From Giesbergeria sp. (lineage in GTDB: Bacteria; Pseudomonadota; Gammaproteobacteria; Burkholderiales; Burkholderiaceae_C): a DNA stretch of 64,000 bases. The first letter of the stretch is position 1. Each line of letters begins with the position of its first letter. The notes under the pieces are model-generated. The model did not search any database. It was not told where the DNA came from and saw only the letters and a program-made list of their open reading frames with translations. Below, piece by piece: positions 50,320 through 56,615 of the stretch. The position numbers and the translations under genes are program-made. Location of the stretch: assembly GCF_028686475.1 (NCBI RefSeq), contig NZ_JAQUCA010000008.1:62001-126000 (forward strand), read 5' to 3'.

Positions 50320-51234
50320 ATGGAAATCGCCCTCATCCTTGTTGTTATTGCCGTGATTTTTATTGCGCGCTCCATCAAAGTGGTGCCCCAGCAAAACGCT
50401 TGGGTCAAAGAGCGCCTGGGCAAGTATGCGGGCACGCTCAGCCCTGGCTTGAACTTTTTGGTGCCGTTTGTCGATAAGGTGGCCTACAAACACAGCCTGA
50501 AAGAAATCCCACTGGATGTGCCCAGCCAAGTGTGTATCACCCGCGACAACACCCAGCTGCAAGTGGATGGCATTTTGTATTTTCAGGTAACCGACCCGAT
50601 GCGTGCCAGCTATGGCTCCAGCAACTACATCATGGCCGTGACGCAGTTGGCACAAACCAGCCTGCGTAGCGTGATTGGCAAGCTCGAATTGGACAAAACC
50701 TTTGAAGAGCGCGACATCATCAACGCCCAAATTGTGCAAGCGATTGACGAGGCGGCCCTCAACTGGGGTGTGAAGGTGCTGCGCTACGAAATCAAAGATT
50801 TGACACCCCCGAAAGAAATTTTGCACGCCATGCAGGCGCAAATCACGGCGGAACGTGAAAAGCGCGCCCTGATTGCCGCCTCCGAGGGGCGGCGCCAAGA
50901 GCAAATTAACATCGCCACCGGCGAGCGCGAAGCCTTTATTGCCCGCTCCGAAGGCGAAAAACAAGCTGCCATCAACAAGGCCCAAGGCGAAGCCACTGCC
51001 ATCATGACGCTGGCCTCGGCCTCGGCGCAAGCCATTGAACGCGTGGCCACCGCCATCCGCCAGCCCGGCGGCGAGCAAGCAGTGCAGCTGAAAGTGGCCG
51101 AAAAAGCGGTAGAAGCCTATGGCAAACTGGCCCAAGATGCCACCACCACCCTGATTGTGCCCAGCAACATGAGCGAAGTCTCAACCCTGATTGCCTCGGC
51201 CATGAAGATGGTGCAGGTTGAGCGCAAATCTTAA
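50320..51234 (+). CDS. qmcA: SPFH/Band 7 paraslipin (QmcA-like)
   Basis: SPFH-domain protein of 304 residues from the ATG at 50320, with an N-terminal membrane anchor ('EIALILVVIAVIFIARS'), then 'VPQQNAWVKERLGKYAGTLSPGLNFLVPFVDKVAY', the paraslipin start, and a long helical C-terminal half with 'ATGEREAFIARSEGEKQAAINKAQGEA'. It forms oligomers at the membrane and is implicated in quality control with FtsH. The nfeD-SPFH pairing is typical. Confidence 0.93.
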   Translation: MEIALILVVIAVIFIARSIKVVPQQNAWVKERLGKYAGTLSPGLNFLVPFVDKVAYKHSLKEIPLDVPSQVCITRDNTQLQVDGILYFQVTDPMRASYGSSNYIMAVTQLAQTSLRSVIGKLELDKTFEERDIINAQIVQAIDEAALNWGVKVLRYEIKDLTPPKEILHAMQAQITAEREKRALIAASEGRRQEQINIATGEREAFIARSEGEKQAAINKAQGEATAIMTLASASAQAIERVATAIRQPGGEQAVQLKVAEKAVEAYGKLAQDATTTLIVPSNMSEVSTLIASAMKMVQVERKS

Positions 51235-52066
51235 ACCTGCTCTAACCCCCCTGTCCTCTGCCTCAGACCATCGCCCGACGAACCACCCCCTGCGACATGA
51301 GTACCTCACGGGCTACACCCTCGATGATGTGTACGGACAAACGCCTGCGGTGCTGTCCTCGGGGCAGCATGACGACCGCTTTTATGCGAACTTGTACCAA
51401 ACCTTGGCCAAGGGGGAAGATTTTCGGGCTACCTTTGTCAACAAGCGGCGCGATGGCTCTATTTTTCATGCCGAGCAAAGCATTTCTCCCATCAGCGACG
51501 AAAAAGGCTGTATTACGCACTACATCAGCGTGAGCAAAGACATCACCACACGGGTCAATAAAGAGCAAGCGCTGGTTTATGCCGCCACCCACGACAAACT
51601 TACCGGTCTTTACAACCGCCGACACGGCGAAAAGCTGCTCAACGAAGCCTATCTTTACGCCCAAGCCCAGCAGGAACCCCTGAGCTTGCTCGTATGTGAC
51701 ATTGACCACTTCAAGCAAATCAATGACCGTTTTGGTCACCCCGCTGGCGACCGGGCTTTGCACAACGTGGCCACGCACTTGCTGCACGGAGTACGCAGTC
51801 GCGACCCGGTCATTCGCTGGGGCGGGGAGGAATTTATCATTGTGCTGAGCCAATGCGCTGCCGCACCTGCCTTTGAGTTGGCCGAACGTCTACGCCATCG
51901 CCTCCAAAACTACCGCGATGCAGAAGTGGGTTCATTGACTTTATCCTTAGGTCTGGCCACCCTCAAAACCAACGAAACGCTAGAGCAGCTGATTGCCCGT
52001 GCCGATGCAGCGGCCTACCAAGCCAAACACCAAGGGCGCAACCGCACCGTGGTGGCCAGCGGATAA
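51218..52066 (+). pseudogene. 5'-truncated PAS-GGDEF diguanylate cyclase
   Basis: The reading frame encodes a late PAS-domain half starting at 'YLTGYTLDDVYGQTP' followed by a PAC-like 'ISPISDEKGCITHYISVSKDIT', and a GGDEF domain with 'HDKLTGLYNRR', 'DIDHFKQINDRFGHPAGD' and the intact active site 'RWGGEEF'. The first half of the PAS domain is absent. The only start in the track is a TTG inside qmcA, and the 282-codon translation contains no other methionine. It is best read as a gene that lost its 5' end, although a GTG start could still give a GGDEF-only protein. Confidence 0.7.
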
Positions 52067-52108
52067 TTATTTCTGCCCTGCTACGCAGATGAAGCTCAAT
52101 TTATCGCC

Positions 52109-52114
52109 TATAAT
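52109..52114 (+). promoter_or_regulatory. -10 box of tRNA-Ser
   Basis: TATAAT lies 12 bases before the mature tRNA-Ser 5' end. No clear -35 hexamer is seen at the right distance. Confidence 0.5.
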
Positions 52115-52126
52115 AATAGGCTACGC

Positions 52127-52216
<90 letters not shown>

Positions 52217-52227
52217 TCAGATAGACC

Positions 52228-52263
52228 AAAGCCAGCCAACTACAGCCAGTTGACTGGCTTTTT
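52228..52263 (+). terminator. terminator after tRNA-Ser (element-side copy)
   Basis: AAAGCCAG...AACT / AGTT...CTGGCTTT stem followed by T residues. Its start resembles the terminator at 56195 ('AGCC-GCCAACTACA' shared), as if the tRNA now has an element-borne terminator and the second one is the original. Confidence 0.75.
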
Positions 52264-52269
52264 CATTGG
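52250..52269 (+). repeat. left direct repeat (candidate attL core)
   Basis: TTGACTGGCTTTTTCATTGG, 34 bases after tRNA-Ser and within its terminator. It matches the right repeat except for a 3-base insertion. Confidence 0.55.
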
Positions 52270-52331
52270 GCAAGTGGGCATGGTATCGGCCAAAGAAGAC
52301 CACCTAGCCCCATAGACAGCCACCACGCAAC

Positions 52332-52382
52332 CGGGGAAAAATTCGGGGAACAGATTCACCCCGTACCCCGGTACCGGGGAAC
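52332..52382 (+). repeat. left CGGGGAA repeat cluster
   Basis: CGGGGAA occurs at 52333, 52345 and 52376. The first two, 12 bases apart, match 18 of 20 bases of a pair near the right end. They resemble arm-type recombinase-binding sites. Confidence 0.6.
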
Positions 52383-52412
52383 ACCACCCCGATACCCCCT
52401 TTGGAGCTGTCC

Positions 52413-52583
52413 ATGCCACTGACCGACGTTGATTGCAAAAACGCCACTTGCCCACCTGAACGAAAACTCATTCACATGGGCCTAGAGGTCAAGTCTTTGG
52501 GCAAGGTAGGCGGCACGGTTAAATGGGCTGTGGGAAGTTGCGACAACGGGGGATATTGTTCACATGAAATCTCCCACAGCTAA
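52413..52583 (+). pseudogene. tyrosine-integrase N-terminal stub
   Basis: The ATG at 52413, preceded by GGAG, opens a 56-codon frame beginning 'MPLTDVDCKNATCP', similar to the start of P4-type tyrosine recombinases ('MPLTDxxCrnAxcP'), with 'GLEVKSLGK' corresponding to their 'GLYLEV' region. The frame then ends at the right end of the IS200/IS605-type element. No catalytic domain is found anywhere in the element, so it is a remnant. Similarity is short, hence moderate confidence. Confidence 0.5.
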
Positions 52584-52602
52584 ACGCAAAGCGTTGTAGC
52601 TG
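52577..52602 (-). ncRNA. right-end hairpin, candidate omega-RNA region of TnpB
   Basis: CAGCTAAACGC-AAA-GCGTTGTAGCTG forms a near-perfect stem. In IS200/IS605 elements the right end downstream of tnpB is both a transposition substrate and the source of the omega (guide) RNA. The hairpin could be part of either; the transcript would extend from inside the tnpB 3' end across this site. Confidence 0.45.
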
Positions 52603-52678
52603 GGGTTTCTCGCTTCATCGACCGGTACGCCAAGATGTTGCCATCTGGACGGTTTACCCATGTCTCTACGAGCGTAAG

Positions 52679-54010
52679 CTAGGTTGCCCCAGCCGGTTTG
52701 GAGCATTCCGCCCCTACCTTTTGTTTTCTGACCCTTGCCCGCTTGACTTTCTTCTTTGCTACACCCTCGCCCAAAATGAGAGCTACCCCGCGTTTGACCA
52801 GCACCTTGGCGGCGTTGGTGTCGGCGTTGTCGGTGCAATGGCAGCTTTGGCAAACAAACGCGGCTTGAGAGCGCCGGTTGTCTGGGTGAGTGAAACCGCA
52901 GTGGCTGCACTCCTGCGAAGAATAGTGTGCGGGCACTTCGATGCACAGTTTGCCTGCGCGCAGGGCTTTGTATTGTGTGTAAGCCTTGATTTGCCCCCAG
53001 CCTGAAGCCAGGATGGCACGGTTCAGTCCGGCTTTTTGCTGGACGTTTTTACCCGGCTTCTCGGTATCGCCTTTGGCACTGGTAGCCATGTTTTTGACTT
53101 TGAGCGCCTCCAATACATACAGCTTGTAGGCTGGGTCTGCTACCAAGGCATGGCTGGTTTGGTGGCAAAAATCGCGGCGCAGGTCAGTAGCGTATTGCTG
53201 GCATTGGGCTACACGCTGCTTGGCTTTTTTCCAGCGTCCTGAACCTTTAACCCGACGCGCTTGGCGGCGTTGCCAGCGCTTTTTGCGCTTTTCTTGCTGG
53301 ACTAAACGCTTTTTTTCTATTGCCCGAAAATCAAACTGCTGTCCATTGCTGGCCGCCAGTGGAATCTGGACACCTCTGTCCAAGCCTAGCGTGACGCTAC
53401 TCAGTTCAGAAGTGCTGAAGCTGCGTAGCCATTGGGTGATTTCCTCAACGCTAGGTTCGGCGATGCCGTCGTCATAGTTAAAGGACACATGCCTGTGTCC
53501 GGCATGGATGCTCAGGTGGATGGAAGCTGGCAGCGCGTAATCACGGTGCGCTGTAAAAGCCAAGCAGCCCAGGGGATGCTTTTTGGTGCCAAGATGCAGC
53601 AGGTGGTGCGTGACTTTTCCGGTCTCATCTTTGATAGGCTCAAAGGAAAACAATTCGCGCGTAAGCCATACCGATTATTTACCATACTTGGCTTGGATAG
53701 TGGGGCGGCCAGCCAAACCGGCAAAGAAACGGCTGTAAGCCTGCATCCATTTGGCGGCACCATTGCGTAACAGCTGGCTAGGCACCTCAGATAGCCACGG
53801 GGTCAGTTCTGGGTGCTTGAACTGGCTGTATTGTTGGTCTATGGCGGCAAACTGTCCGGTGTGTTGGAGGGACTTGCGGGCAAAGGTGCGAAAATAGCGG
53901 TCTTCTTGCACCTTGGCGTTGTAGATAAAACGCTGGCAACCTATCCATTGCAACAGCACTTTTTCTTGTGCTGGAGTGGGGTAACAACGAAAACAGTTGC
54001 CAATTTGCAT
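52679..54010 (-). pseudogene. tnpB: tnpB (IS200/IS605) interrupted by one in-frame stop
   Basis: Two track ORFs, 53675-54010 and 52679-53653, are in the same frame and join across a single TAA at 53675-53677 to a 443-codon TnpB. The N-terminal part 'CFRCYPTPAQEKVLLQWIGCQRFIYN' is the usual helix-turn-helix start. The second part has the RuvC-like residues: Asp in 'LGLDRGVQ', Glu in 'VLEALKVKNM' and the final Asp in 'DNADTNAAK', plus the zinc ribbon 'CSHCGFTHPDNRRSQAAFVCQSC' (shown for its four Cys). Only one nonsense change separates it from an intact RNA-guided nuclease-type gene. Confidence 0.85.
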
Positions 54011-54041
54011 CAGATGATTCTATTCTTTATCCAACAAAAAA

Positions 54042-54058
54042 GGCACTTTGCAAGTGCC
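54042..54058. repeat. left-end hairpin of the IS element
   Basis: GGCACTT-TGC-AAGTGCC, a perfect 7-bp palindrome 32 bases upstream of the tnpB start, followed on the minus strand by T6. It may be the subterminal left-end palindrome of the element or a terminator that insulates tnpB. Confidence 0.5.
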
Positions 54059-54121
54059 GCTCGCTTGACCCACACCCTGCCTAGCGGCTAGGGTGGGGAA
54101 TGCGCTCGCAAGGAGTTCAAA

Positions 54122-54226
54122 GTCCTGAATGTCCTGCAAGTCCTGCTAACAACCCCAAAACCCCCAATTTTGCTGAAAATTTAGGCAAAAACCCCATTCA
54201 TGCGGACATTGGCGGACATGGCGGAC
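54122..54226. repeat. two inverted clusters of short direct repeats (iteron-like)
   Basis: GTCCTG occurs at 54122, 54131 and 54140 (9-base period). GCGGAC, the reverse complement of GTCCGC, occurs at 54202, 54212 and 54221 (10- and 9-base spacing). The clusters face each other around an A+T-richer 55-base centre. They could be replication or regulator-binding iterons, or codon-level repeats in a lost gene. The stretch 54071-54292 has no convincing intact gene. Confidence 0.4.
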
Positions 54227-54292
54227 TTCAAACAACACAATATCCCCCGCTACCCAAGCTGGCGATGATGATGTTATCGAGGTGGCGTTTTG

Positions 54293-54703
54293 ATGGCCGC
54301 CATTACCTACCCTCTGGGCCATAAGAGTAAAAGCACCCCGGCCCCAAGCGCTACCGAAGTGCTGGCGCAGGCCCAAGCCTTGGGCGTGGTGCTGGCCTTA
54401 TCCGATGGCGAACTTCGCGCCCGTGGCAACCAAGCTGGCATTGCCAAATTGGCGCAACATATCCGCAACTGCAAGCCTGAATTGGTAGAGCTACTGGCAC
54501 CGCTTACTGTGGCCCCAGACCCGGCAAAGCCCTTGCCCAAGTTCCACGCGGCCCAGCCGTGGTGCGCCCTAGACCGTGAGTTCCAAGCCCACTATTGGCA
54601 GTGCCCGGCGTGCAAGGCTGGTGGGCGAACCCGTGGCCCGCTATGCCCTACCGGCGAACAACTGCAACAGGCAGTTGACAACGCCATGAGTAAGCGCCGA
54701 TAG
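54293..54703 (+). CDS. TubC N-terminal docking-domain-like protein
   Basis: The 136-residue protein has 'ATEVLAQAQALGVVLALSDGELRARGNQAGIAKLAQHIRNCKPELVELLA' (only the pattern is diagnostic), matching the TubC N-terminal docking fold often found at the start of proteins of integrative elements. A C-terminal 'CPACKAGG...C' suggests a small zinc-binding site. Its usual place is a replication or regulatory gene of the mobile element; the exact role is unknown. A terminator follows. Confidence 0.6.
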   Translation: MAAITYPLGHKSKSTPAPSATEVLAQAQALGVVLALSDGELRARGNQAGIAKLAQHIRNCKPELVELLAPLTVAPDPAKPLPKFHAAQPWCALDREFQAHYWQCPACKAGGRTRGPLCPTGEQLQQAVDNAMSKRR

Positions 54704-54732
54704 CCAGCACCACCACAGAAACCCAGCACTAG

Positions 54733-54754
54733 CCCGCCTAGAGCGGGTTTTTTT
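54733..54754 (+). terminator. terminator after the TubC-like ORF
   Basis: CCCGC-CTAGA-GCGGG hairpin followed by T7. The bases from here to 54953 show no gene. Confidence 0.85.
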
Positions 54755-54953
54755 GCGCCAGTTCATACCGGAAGCGGCTGGCATTAAGCAACCGGCCCAA
54801 GTGGTGCCACTGTTGGTAAAGGCCGCCTAAGCCGCAAGACCCCCAGCGCCAGCAAAGGCAAGCCAGCCCAAACCGTGCCTTTTCTGGTGCTTTTCCCCCC
54901 CCATGCCGCCCAGCCCCTAACCGACGTGGGGATGGTTGCGCGTGGCGTTCCAT

Positions 54954-54973
54954 GTATAGCAAAATGGCTATAC
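54954..54973. promoter_or_regulatory. palindromic operator of the HTH gene
   Basis: GTATAGC-AAAATG-GCTATAC is a perfect 7-bp inverted repeat that ends one base before the ATG of the HTH gene, as expected for an autoregulated antitoxin. Binding would block initiation or translation start. Confidence 0.7.
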
Positions 54974-54974
54974 G

Positions 54975-55253
54975 ATGAAAACATTGCAGCAACTCAAAAG
55001 CCAAATGCTGGCCAGCCCCGAAACCCGTAAGGCATACGACGCTATGGGGGATGAGTTTGGCATGGCCCGTGAACTGATAGCCGCCCGCGCCCGTGCTGGC
55101 CTAAGCCAAGCGGACGTGGCCCAGCGCATGGGCACTACCCAAAGTGCAGTAGCCCGGCTAGAGAGTGGCCAGCGCCCACCATCGTTGCGTAGCGTGCAAC
55201 GCTATGCCCAAGCCATTGGATGCCGTGCTGTGGTGCGATTGGAGTACGCCTAG
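54975..55253 (+). CDS. HTH XRE-family antitoxin-like protein (HigA type)
   Basis: 92-residue protein with a C-terminal helix-turn-helix domain: 'ARELIAARARAGLSQADVAQRMGTTQSAVARLESGQRPPSLRSVQRYAQAIG' (about 29-80; only the pattern is needed). The N-terminal 'SPETRKAYDAMGDEF' matches HigA-type antitoxins encoded after a RelE-like toxin. No toxin gene lies upstream (the 220 bases there are non-coding), so it is an orphan regulator or antitoxin. Confidence 0.85.
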   Translation: MKTLQQLKSQMLASPETRKAYDAMGDEFGMARELIAARARAGLSQADVAQRMGTTQSAVARLESGQRPPSLRSVQRYAQAIGCRAVVRLEYA

Positions 55254-55324
55254 CCTGTTTGGCCGTGGCCTTTTCTGGTGCATCCCTGCCCAAAACCAAC
55301 ACCCTAGCCCCAAAAAGTTAAACT

Positions 55325-55603
55325 GTGTACAACCTTTGGAGCAACACCATTCACACTTCTACCCTTCGCACTGTGGGCGGTTCTATCGCCCTGACCATCC
55401 CGCAAAAGCTGGCGCGTGCCTTGGGCTTGCACGCTGGCGACACGGTCAACCTAGATGCCGAGCATGGCCGCCTTGTTGTTGCACCAGTGGCCCGCCGTAG
55501 CTACACCCTAGAGCAAGTGCTGGCCATGCAAGGGGAGGCACCGCTGGTGATAGATACCGACTGGGACACCATGCCAGCCACAGGCCGGGAGGTAGCACTG
55601 TGA
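55325..55603 (+). CDS. AbrB/MazE-family antitoxin
   Basis: 92-residue protein (GTG start) with a swapped-hairpin AbrB/MazE domain: 'TLRTVGGSIALTIPQKLARALGLHAGDTVNLDAEHGRLVVAP' (about residues 13-54, core 'GGSIALTIPQKLA') and an acidic C-terminal tail that would bind the toxin. It overlaps the downstream MazF-like gene by four bases (GTGA), the usual antitoxin-toxin layout. Confidence 0.83.
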   Translation: MYNLWSNTIHTSTLRTVGGSIALTIPQKLARALGLHAGDTVNLDAEHGRLVVAPVARRSYTLEQVLAMQGEAPLVIDTDWDTMPATGREVAL

Positions 55604-55854
55604 GGGCTTTTGAGCGTGGCGACATCGTGGCCCTGACCTTTGACCCCACTTTAGGCCGGGAGCAGCAAGGCCACCGCCCGGCGCTGGTGCTAACCCCACA
55701 AGCCTTTAACCGCTTGGGCCTGATAGGCGTATGCCCTATTACCCAAGGCGGACAGGGTGCCCGTGCTGTGGGTATGGCGGTATCGCTTACGGGTGCTGGT
55801 GTGCCCTTGCTGCACAGCTACCCGGTATTCGACGGGTTGCCATCCTCTACTTGA
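55600..55854 (+). CDS. MazF/PemK-like toxin, C-terminally shortened
   Basis: The 84-residue GTG-start protein begins 'FERGDIVALTFDPTLGREQQGHRPALVLTP', the N-terminal half of MazF/ChpB-type endoribonucleases including 'GHRPALVL', then 'LGLIGVCPITQG'. Family members are about 110 residues; the last strands and helix, including the conserved 'DxVrtlDw' region, are missing and are not found in other frames downstream. It is therefore probably an inactive or altered toxin. Confidence 0.7.
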   Translation: MRAFERGDIVALTFDPTLGREQQGHRPALVLTPQAFNRLGLIGVCPITQGGQGARAVGMAVSLTGAGVPLLHSYPVFDGLPSST

Positions 55855-56090
55855 GGCGTGCCATTGCTTGCAGGCATTGCCATTGCCTGCCACGCCAGAG
55901 CCACCACGCCCGGCTATCTGCACTGGCGCGCCAGTTGGCAAAGGCAGGCCACTTAGATGGCCGTGCCCGTGGTACTGCTAAACTGCCAACCCCATAACCG
56001 ACAACCATGTTGCATCCATGCCACGCACTCAAAAAAAGCAAGCTATCAAAATCATAGCGCCTAAACATGGGGCAATTGGAATCCCAAACA
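55855..56090. other. no gene seen
   Basis: About 236 bases between the shortened toxin and the right repeat cluster contain only short ORFs without recognisable features. They may include the displaced end of the toxin gene. Confidence 0.5.
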
Positions 56091-56128
56091 CGGGGAACAA
56101 AACCAAAACCGGGGAATAAATCGGGGAA
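56091..56128 (+). repeat. right CGGGGAA repeat cluster
   Basis: CGGGGAA occurs at 56091, 56110 and 56122. The last two repeat the 12-base spacing and flanks of the left pair (CCGGGGAAnnnnnCGGGGAA). Confidence 0.6.
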
Positions 56129-56142
56129 TAAATTCGGGTTTT

Positions 56143-56159
56143 TTGACTGTTTTCATTGG
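56143..56159 (+). repeat. right direct repeat (candidate attR core)
   Basis: TTGACTGTTTTCATTGG, same orientation as the left repeat at 52250. Chromosomal genes resume after it. Confidence 0.55.
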
Positions 56160-56194
56160 TGAATTGGGTTCCCGCCATGCCATTAAATAGAATC

Positions 56195-56234
56195 AAGCCC
56201 GCCAACTACACCTTGTTAGTTTGCGGGCTTTTTT
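56195..56234 (+). terminator. terminator, probably original tRNA-Ser terminator
   Basis: AAGCCCGC...AACTA / TTAGTT...GCGGGCTT stem followed by T6. No gene directly upstream needs it now, which fits displacement from tRNA-Ser by the inserted element. The 168 bases from here to the DUF2788 ATG show no further gene. Confidence 0.8.
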
Positions 56235-56402
56235 ATGCTTGGCCCCCGGCAGCATGGCTATCGGCTTGGGTGCTAAAAAATCCGGTGTGTCATGCAATAG
56301 GTGGCAAAAATGGACGTGCTAGGTACGCCACCAAAGCAAAGGGTGCCATGCACTCTAAGCTCTACCTCCTTGGTGTCTGGCCAAGGCTTCACGCGCAAAT
56401 TG

Positions 56403-56615
56403 ATGATTTTTGGCTTGAGCGAAGAGCAAATCGCCGATTTTTTCCTGACCTACGGCGTAGGGGCGTTCATTTTGCTGATGTTGTTCATCATTGGGCAATT
56501 GGCATGGCAGTCTAAGGCGGGCAAGTTTGGCACCATGATTATGTTTATTGGCTTGGGGCTGGGCATTCTGGGCTTTGTGGCCAAAATCGTGTTGCAATCC
56601 ATACTAGAGCGCTGA
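56403..56615 (+). CDS. DUF2788 small membrane protein
   Basis: 70-residue protein from the ATG at 56403: 'GLSEEQIADFFLTYGVGAF' then two transmembrane helices with 'FIIGQLAWQSKAGKFGT' between them, matching DUF2788. Function unknown. The track ORF from 56301 includes an unlikely 34-codon extension. Confidence 0.82.
   Translation: MIFGLSEEQIADFFLTYGVGAFILLMLFIIGQLAWQSKAGKFGTMIMFIGLGLGILGFVAKIVLQSILER

Follow-up and report, generated by a model that had tools for sequence, protein, structure and literature searches.

P4-cluster integrases insert downstream of tRNA genes (PMC8138268), and IntS, the integrase of the KplE1 prophage of E. coli, represses its own promoter through the arm sites in attL, with the P'1 arm site overlapping the −10 box (PMC2951348). 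Here, we describe a locus in a 64-kb stretch of the genome of Giesbergeria sp. (contig NZ_JAQUCA010000008.1, positions 62,001 to 126,000; this whole stretch is termed the window herein). At window positions 52217 to 56182, we recognize, with a probability that we put at about 0.92, a dead element of ∼4 kb that belonged to a DUF4102 (Arm-DNA-bind_3, P4/IntSXT-type) tyrosine integrase, lies behind tRNA-Ser(GGA), and carries paired arm sites on both sides of the crossover. The element itself is ordinary in kind; the findings worth following are the arm-site signature and its co-variation with the N-terminal domain (N-domain) of the integrase.

Paired arm sites and the homologous elements of relatives

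The heptamer CGGGGAA occurs seven times in the window, compared to 8.25 copies expected from shuffles, and is thus not over-represented. Six of the seven copies, all on one strand, fall into two clusters of ∼50 bp that are 3.7 kb apart (52332, 52344, and 52375; 56091, 56110, and 56122), so that the total is ordinary while the double clustering is not. The 20-base pairs at 52331-52350 and 56109-56128 are identical in 18 of 20 bases, and both have a 12-base period. In the whole genome (3.39 Mb), closely spaced arrays of the heptamer were found at the element ends and at one further place only, C4:35594-35650. A total at shuffle level is what chance clustering of a G-rich heptamer would predict; the two one-strand clusters, and homologues at the equivalent place in other genomes, make that explanation hardly credible. 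A preliminary description of the locus had listed these motifs together with a direct repeat, all of which are present, and had proposed a small degraded integrative element, a proposal that the integrase stub and the intact homologous elements in relatives bear out. The parts of the locus are as follows.

52127 to 52216, plus strand: tRNA-Ser(GGA), the intact target gene on the attL side (ARAGORN and Rfam tRNA; the 90 bp are identical in congeners).
52230 to 52269, plus strand: terminator hairpin (52230-52241 with 52248-52259), T-run, and CATTGG, directly 3' of the tRNA (sequence).
52250 to 52269, plus strand: left copy of the direct repeat, taken for an att site in the preliminary description; 3' half of the terminator (sequence).
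52313 to 52318, plus strand: TAGACA, located 19 bp before the arm pair and a candidate for the −35 box of the lost int promoter (comparison of left ends).
52332 to 52351, plus strand: left (int-proximal) arm pair CGGGGAAA-AATT-CGGGGAAC, the last C of the first unit being lost (homologous pair in L052).
52375 to 52382, plus strand: third copy of CGGGGAAC, between the left pair and the int start (extra copies are usual here in relatives).
52413 to 52556, plus strand: N-terminal stub (MPLTDVDCKNATCPPERK...) of a DUF4102 tyrosine integrase, truncated and also eroded internally (tblastn).
52679 to 54010, minus strand: tnpB of the IS200/IS605 type in two open reading frames (ORFs; 53675-54010 and 52679-53653), at the end of the integrase gene (Pfam HTH_OrfB_IS605, OrfB_IS605, and Cas12f1-like_TNB).
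54290 to 54703, plus strand: ORF of 137 amino acids with no confident family (ORF list, Pfam and phrog searches).
54975 to 55253, plus strand: XRE/HTH_3 regulator (Pfam HTH_3; phrog_1373, transcriptional regulator).
55325 to 55603, plus strand: MazE antitoxin (Pfam MazE_antitoxin).
55600 to 55854, plus strand: truncated PemK/MazF toxin (Pfam PemK_toxin, positions 1-62 of 109).
56091 to 56098, plus strand: extra copy of CGGGGAAC outside the right pair (same copy in the C4 remnant).
56110 to 56129, plus strand: right (int-distal) arm pair CGGGGAAT-AAAT-CGGGGAAT (intact right pairs in relatives are CGGGGAACAAATCGGGGAAC).
56147 to 56165, plus strand: P' flank TTTTCATTGGTGAATT, just before the core, overlapping the right copy of the direct repeat (56143-56159; comparison with L217 of G001).
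56166 to 56182, plus strand: attR core remnant GGGTTCCCGCCATGCCA, which copies the tRNA-Ser 3' end GGGTTCGAATCCCGCCCTCTCCGCCA in eroded form (spacing and relatives).
56196 to 56236, plus strand: second terminator hairpin AAGCCCGCCAACTA...TAGTTTGCGGGCTTTTTT, which is probably the native terminator of the tRNA, now displaced (26 of 32 bases as in 52214-52245 by hand count; 72% over 58 bp in a self-blastn).

A congener (G001) carries a homologous element, in which tRNA-Ser(GGA), the terminator with CATTGG (...GGCGGGCTTTTTCATTGG), a CGGGGAAC pair, and an intact integrase of 413 amino acids follow each other in the order of the window. Its left pair (CGGGGAACATATCGGGGAAC, at position 2441 of L052) lies 114 bp from the tRNA, compared to 115 bp in the window, and its integrase has Arm-DNA-bind_3, central, and catalytic domains (PF13356 match at 9.5e-23). 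The census of this genome gave exactly one left-type and one right-type pair. At the right end, on L217, the pair is followed at 57 bp (54 bp in the window) by GTTTTCATTGGTGAATTCGACTCCCGCCCTCCCGCCA, a copy of the tRNA-Ser 3' end, and the P' flank string GTTTTCATTGGTGAATT is present and followed by CGACTCCCGCCCTCCCGCCA. This copy and its spacing place the attR core of the window at 56166-56182, so that both copies of the TTGACTG repeat become neighbouring features rather than the core. The two elements have tRNA-Ser(GGA), terminator, arm pairs, and P' flank in common; unlike the window, G001 has retained an intact integrase, and the ends of its element lie on different contigs (L052, left; L217, right).

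The preliminary description had taken the direct repeat, TTGACTG..TTTTCATTGG, for the att core. Its copies, TTGACTGGCTTTTTCATTGG at 52250-52269 and TTGACTGTTTTCATTGG at 56143-56159, share one orientation, lie near both ends, and match in 17 bases, but only with a gap of 3 bases. The left copy forms the 3' arm of a terminator that stands behind tRNA-Ser genes with or without an element. In relatives, it changes along with the terminator stem, and the right end has no second copy of it but does have copies of the tRNA 3' end; the right copy belongs to the P' flank that precedes the real core. A core at the direct repeat is therefore highly unlikely, and the preliminary description was largely right, namely in the kind of element, and wrong on its core. 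The layout of a hairpin and CTTTTTCATTGG behind a tRNA or transfer-messenger RNA (tmRNA) gene is shared by most homologous left ends and also occurs behind the different tRNA-Ser that adjoins serS in G009.

We searched 250 genomes of the family for pairs of the form CGGGGAA-N4-6-CGGGGAA and for integrases. Two same-strand pairs bound elements of 9, 21, 15, 6, and 4 kb in G011, G222, G112, G033, and G087, respectively; in these five, the first pair lies ∼115 bp behind a tRNA or tmRNA gene, and the second is followed after ∼55 to 80 bp by a copy of the 3' end of that gene. G087 has both pairs, with no integrase called beside them. Across relatives, pairs lie ∼60 to 170 bp upstream of intact integrases, and a second same-strand pair follows 4 to 21 kb downstream at the far end. 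The target genes are those of Ser, Arg, Thr, Pro, Gly, and His tRNAs and of tmRNA, with the tRNA left whole. Integrase-linked pairs have the spacer ACAWNY; many other matches to the pair pattern in GC-rich genomes are due to chance.

A scan of one genome per GTDB species with CCGGGGAACAWNYCGGGGAAC gave at least 120 stretches, mostly from Comamonadaceae and their relatives, and the pair pattern was found in 13 stretches of viral contigs, one of them with an adjacent integrase. Among the 133 stretches formed by the matches listed and the viral ones, 29 have a same-strand integrase of this family starting 54 to 355 bp downstream, and only 3 others have one anywhere in the stretch; most of the remaining Burkholderiales stretches listed are right ends with tRNA or tmRNA 3'-end copies. 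A search of viral contigs with the G001 integrase returned no relative. The preliminary description had asked whether its repeats occur widely without linkage to integrases, and the extended pair proved to be linked both to integrases and to tRNA/tmRNA 3' ends. Its further proposal that the CGGGGAA pairs at the two ends are arm-type recombinase sites agrees with pairs that flank whole elements in relatives and match the arm-binding domain of the integrase; we interpret the CGGGGAA(C) pairs with their 12-bp period as arm-type sites, that is, as predicted integrase-binding sites. Replication iterons or operators of a regulator would likewise be short direct repeats with a helical-turn-like spacing upstream of a gene. 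The arrays, however, lie at both extreme ends, one of them without an adjoining gene, they accompany int at many different tRNA and tmRNA genes, and the arm sequence tracks the integrase N-domain and not other genes, all of which makes iterons or operators very unlikely.

Arm-site class and residues of the integrase N-domain

Integrases fetched by protein similarity alone have other arm motifs, GGGGGAAC and GGGGGTAC, at the equivalent place. Among 58 integrases with recognizable arms, CGGGGAAC (first base C) goes with Tyr44 in 36 of 36 cases and GGGGGAAC with Arg44 in 14 of 14, while GGGGGTAC goes with Gln30 in 6 of 7, residues 18 and 51 being mostly Gln as well. Most C-class rows were retrieved by the C motif, so that only the residue is informative for them; in the set retrieved by protein only, the counts are 7/7 for C with Tyr, 14/14 for G with Arg, and 6/6 for T with Gln. 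Column 44 holds all of the information on the first base (0.86 of 0.86 bits; 0.02 in shuffles). Exceptions are L284 (T with Glu), L099 (Ser at position 44), and one A-class case (Tyr).

The distal sites belong to the same class. Both pairs are GGGGGAAC, 4.6 to 14 kb apart and on one strand, in G180, G244, G164, G215, G294, and G120, all with Arg44, and the distal pair is GGGGGTAC, ∼4 kb downstream, in G265 and G204, which are of the Gln class. A reversed control pattern gave 2 matches, compared to 26 for the true pattern (22 genomes). On a tree of the catalytic part, made quickly and with many open forks, the first base changes at least 16 times, with a scatter like that of shuffled labels. 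The residue follows the first base in 8 of 9 independent pairs and never goes in the opposite direction (sign test, p = 0.008); for base 6, it follows in 5 to 6 of 6 independent pairs.

Integrase gene and arm sites adjoin and would be co-inherited, and class and residues could therefore agree by common descent only, without recognition; recombination that transfers the N-domain and the left arms as one unit could also mimic some of the co-variation. We regard this as rather unlikely, because the residue follows class changes that are numerous and scattered over the catalytic tree, and because distal arms kilobases away match too, which the one-unit transfer leaves unexplained. The agreement in class between both ends and the protein is most simply explained if the integrase recognizes the sites. 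It is reasonably probable, judging from these sequence comparisons, that the DUF4102 subfamily of Burkholderiales uses a code for xGGGG[A/T]AC in which Tyr44 would read C and Arg44 would read G at base 1, while Arg/Glu/Arg at residues 18/30/51 would read A and Gln/Gln/Gln would read T at base 6. The N-domain and the arms of both ends would then have switched together many times, which would let co-resident islands keep separate arm specificities. In the (largely open) literature searched, whose scope did not extend to the paper on the HPI/HAI7 arm domain, we found no earlier description of a family-wide paired motif or of a residue-base rule.

A large family of tRNA/tmRNA islands in Burkholderiales bears the 20-base signature at either end, and such islands can be delimited by it even after loss of the integrase or across a break in the contig. 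The DNA specificity of the Arm-DNA-bind_3 domain is otherwise hard to predict, and the co-variation suggests a recognition code for it that is directly testable; it may also explain how several islands of one family coexist in a genome without cross-talk. Reading of the raw sequence can, moreover, reveal the arm-type sites of an integrase that has nearly vanished.

Candidate promoter, proposed crossover, and decay at tRNA-Ser(GGA)

The consensus of 53 left ends starts with the CCA of the tRNA or tmRNA, a hairpin, and cctTTTTcaTTgG, and continues with TTGACAGCC ∼19 bp before the pair and then cGGGGAACAtaccGGGGAACaAa. TTGACA is matched in 6 of 6 bases in 18 of these ends and in 5 of 6 bases in 16 (shuffles, 0.6% and 12.8%, respectively). 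In 36 of the 53, the best position of the TTGACA-like box is 19 bp before the pair, which is exactly the distance of TAGACA in the window; no clear −10 box was seen in the left ends. By analogy with KplE1 IntS, whose arm sites in attL lie at the promoter, this arrangement would make autoregulation of the integrase likely.

The right-end copies match their targets up to the CCA and have small gaps a few bases earlier. The tmRNA sequence CCAGC[T]CCACCA reads CCAGC-CCACCA in about ten independent right ends, and the copies of tRNA-Gly, tRNA-Pro, and tRNA-Ser(GGA) each lack one base at a similar place; those of tRNA-Arg differ more from the tRNA. The gaps before the CCA are most simply explained if the preceding sequence comes from the element, which would place the crossover within the last ∼6 to 7 bases up to the CCA. 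Such a position would accord with a 3'-end class of tRNA integration sites, reportedly distinguished by Williams in 2002. It would also fit the insertion of P4-cluster integrases downstream of tRNA genes (PMC8138268).

We propose that recombination by the integrase joined a circular element to the CCA end of tRNA-Ser(GGA) through a short sequence common to both, which would have kept the tRNA whole and given it an element-borne terminator. The N-terminal domain would have docked on the paired xGGGGAAC arm sites (12-bp period) that flank the crossover, at a distance from the core of ∼115 bp for the left pair, just upstream of int, and of ∼55 bp for the right pair. As the left pair lies just downstream of the conserved TTGACA, the integrase would probably have shut off its own promoter. 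Later, in a presumed order of decay, the integrase gene would have lost all but its first ∼45 codons, which tnpB now directly follows, and both the arm units and the attR core would have eroded, leaving a stranded remnant that keeps a regulator and a MazEF-type pair.

In tblastn, the stub aligns with residues 2 to 47 of the G001 integrase (MLTDTDCKNATCPPDRK...) at 42% identity over 48 columns (E = 2e-6), and the same query found no remnant of the catalytic domain in 52201-56300; of the integrase, ∼45 codons are left, and the DUF4102 N-domain is present as this stub only. The arm units CGGGGAAA and CGGGGAAT are eroded, and 6 bases of the core are replaced by 2. The genome's sole integrase match at E < 1e-80 is 44% identical, belongs to a tRNA-Thr element, and has no GGGG arm sites. 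With arm units and core eroded, the integrase gone, and no close integrase of the subfamily elsewhere in the genome, the element is probably immobile. No excisionase gene was identified in the remnant.

The accessory cargo named in the preliminary description (integrase stub, tnpB, HTH, and MazEF) was recovered by tblastn, ORFs, and Pfam. The tnpB gene is broken over two frames, so that the intact TnpB of an IS200/IS605 element is missing; it is a passenger within the island and not its mover. Insertion of tnpB may have ended the integrase. A hairpin, CCCAGCTA...TAGCTGTGGG, which resembles an IS605-type right end, is located 3' of the broken tnpB, directly at the end of the stub (52550-54060, minus strand).

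Several observations weigh against a DUF4102 integrase element at this locus. The stub is short, as its alignment shows, and was not called by Pfam, and the erosion of the attR core makes the core weak on the window sequence alone. Many integrases of this protein family that protein similarity brought up from other Burkholderiales families have no GGGG arm sites. The right flank, a DUF2788 gene, is not beside tRNA-Ser in relatives, and no clean empty-site match was found there for the right junction. A hand-made, consensus-like integrase query over the order returned mostly integrases of 46 to 50% identity without GGGG arm sites, which suggests that the motif is confined to the subfamily.

tRNA-Ser(GGA) without this element occurs in G009, G013, and others. 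In G002, the tRNA-Ser is followed by another gene, and DUF2788 is 34 kb away; the gene order was probably rearranged at the element or close to it. In a search of the window's own genome, the gene downstream of the G002 tRNA-Ser turned up elsewhere and had no adjoining att remnant. L054 of G009 was considered as a displaced attR and rejected, since it is the different tRNA-Ser beside serS. In the window (51218-56615), a PAS-GGDEF gene precedes the tRNA and DUF2788-hpnE follows the element, and in G002 the tRNA-Ser directly follows an SPFH gene.

Other remnants were observed as well. At tRNA-Ser(GGA), G002 has an eroded integrase stub that differs from the window's and is accompanied by GGGGGTA repeats (L050, 1948-2250), indicating that the site has been reused. 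At L338 of G010 (C431), a GGGGGTAC right end is immediately followed by a CGGGGAAC left end and an eroded integrase start, so that remnants of two arm classes lie in tandem at this site. The array at C4:35594-35650 lies in a region 83% identical over 94 bp to window positions 56079-56172; it was rejected as a second copy of the element, since only the right end is homologous and it sits inside a tRNA-Thr(GGT) element. This ∼9.7-kb element (L008 15178 to L009 8953; C4:35178-44953) encodes an intact DUF4102 integrase, its two ends carry ACCAACAAAA repeats, and the CGGGGAAC-family right-end remnant lies about 400 bp inside its far end. Window positions 56300-56406 (plus strand) hold a sharply delimited dispersed repeat of ∼105 nucleotides (GGTGGC...CTGATGA), whose three hairpins show compensatory changes. 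This genome has at least 25 copies, G002 has 7, and G007 has 5; G010, G009, and G001 have a few, and 21 other relatives have none. The repeat matched no Rfam family and may be either a structured RNA or a small mobile repeat with hairpin ends.

Comparison with described integrases and islands

The preliminary description had seen no obvious known class for the element, which is an island of the Arm-DNA-bind_3/DUF4102 integrase type, a type with insertion downstream of tRNA genes. It shows insertion at a tRNA 3' end with the tRNA whole, an eroded attR copy, and predicted arm sites on both sides of the core; having lost the functional integrase of a DUF4102/P4-type island, it is a dead, non-autonomous remnant. 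The N-domain has sequence homologues at E = 1e-15 and 5e-14, and in 3jtz the R of "KYR" aligns with position 44 of the G001 integrase; the records searched give no arm-site code. As in the KplE1 prophage of IntS (PMC2951348), tRNA and int follow each other in one orientation, with arm sites between core and int at the promoter, here a candidate one; unlike in KplE1, the arm sequence is another one, and autoregulation is suggested here only by the conserved TTGACA beside the pair. The P4 cluster of the IntSXT subgroup (DUF4102/PF13356; PMC8138268) has the domain order of the G001 homologue and likewise inserts downstream of tRNA genes, and the int of phage P4 is 35% identical to the G001 integrase. 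Unlike the P4 cluster, the Burkholderiales subfamily carries paired xGGGG[A/T]AC arm sites with a 12-bp period.

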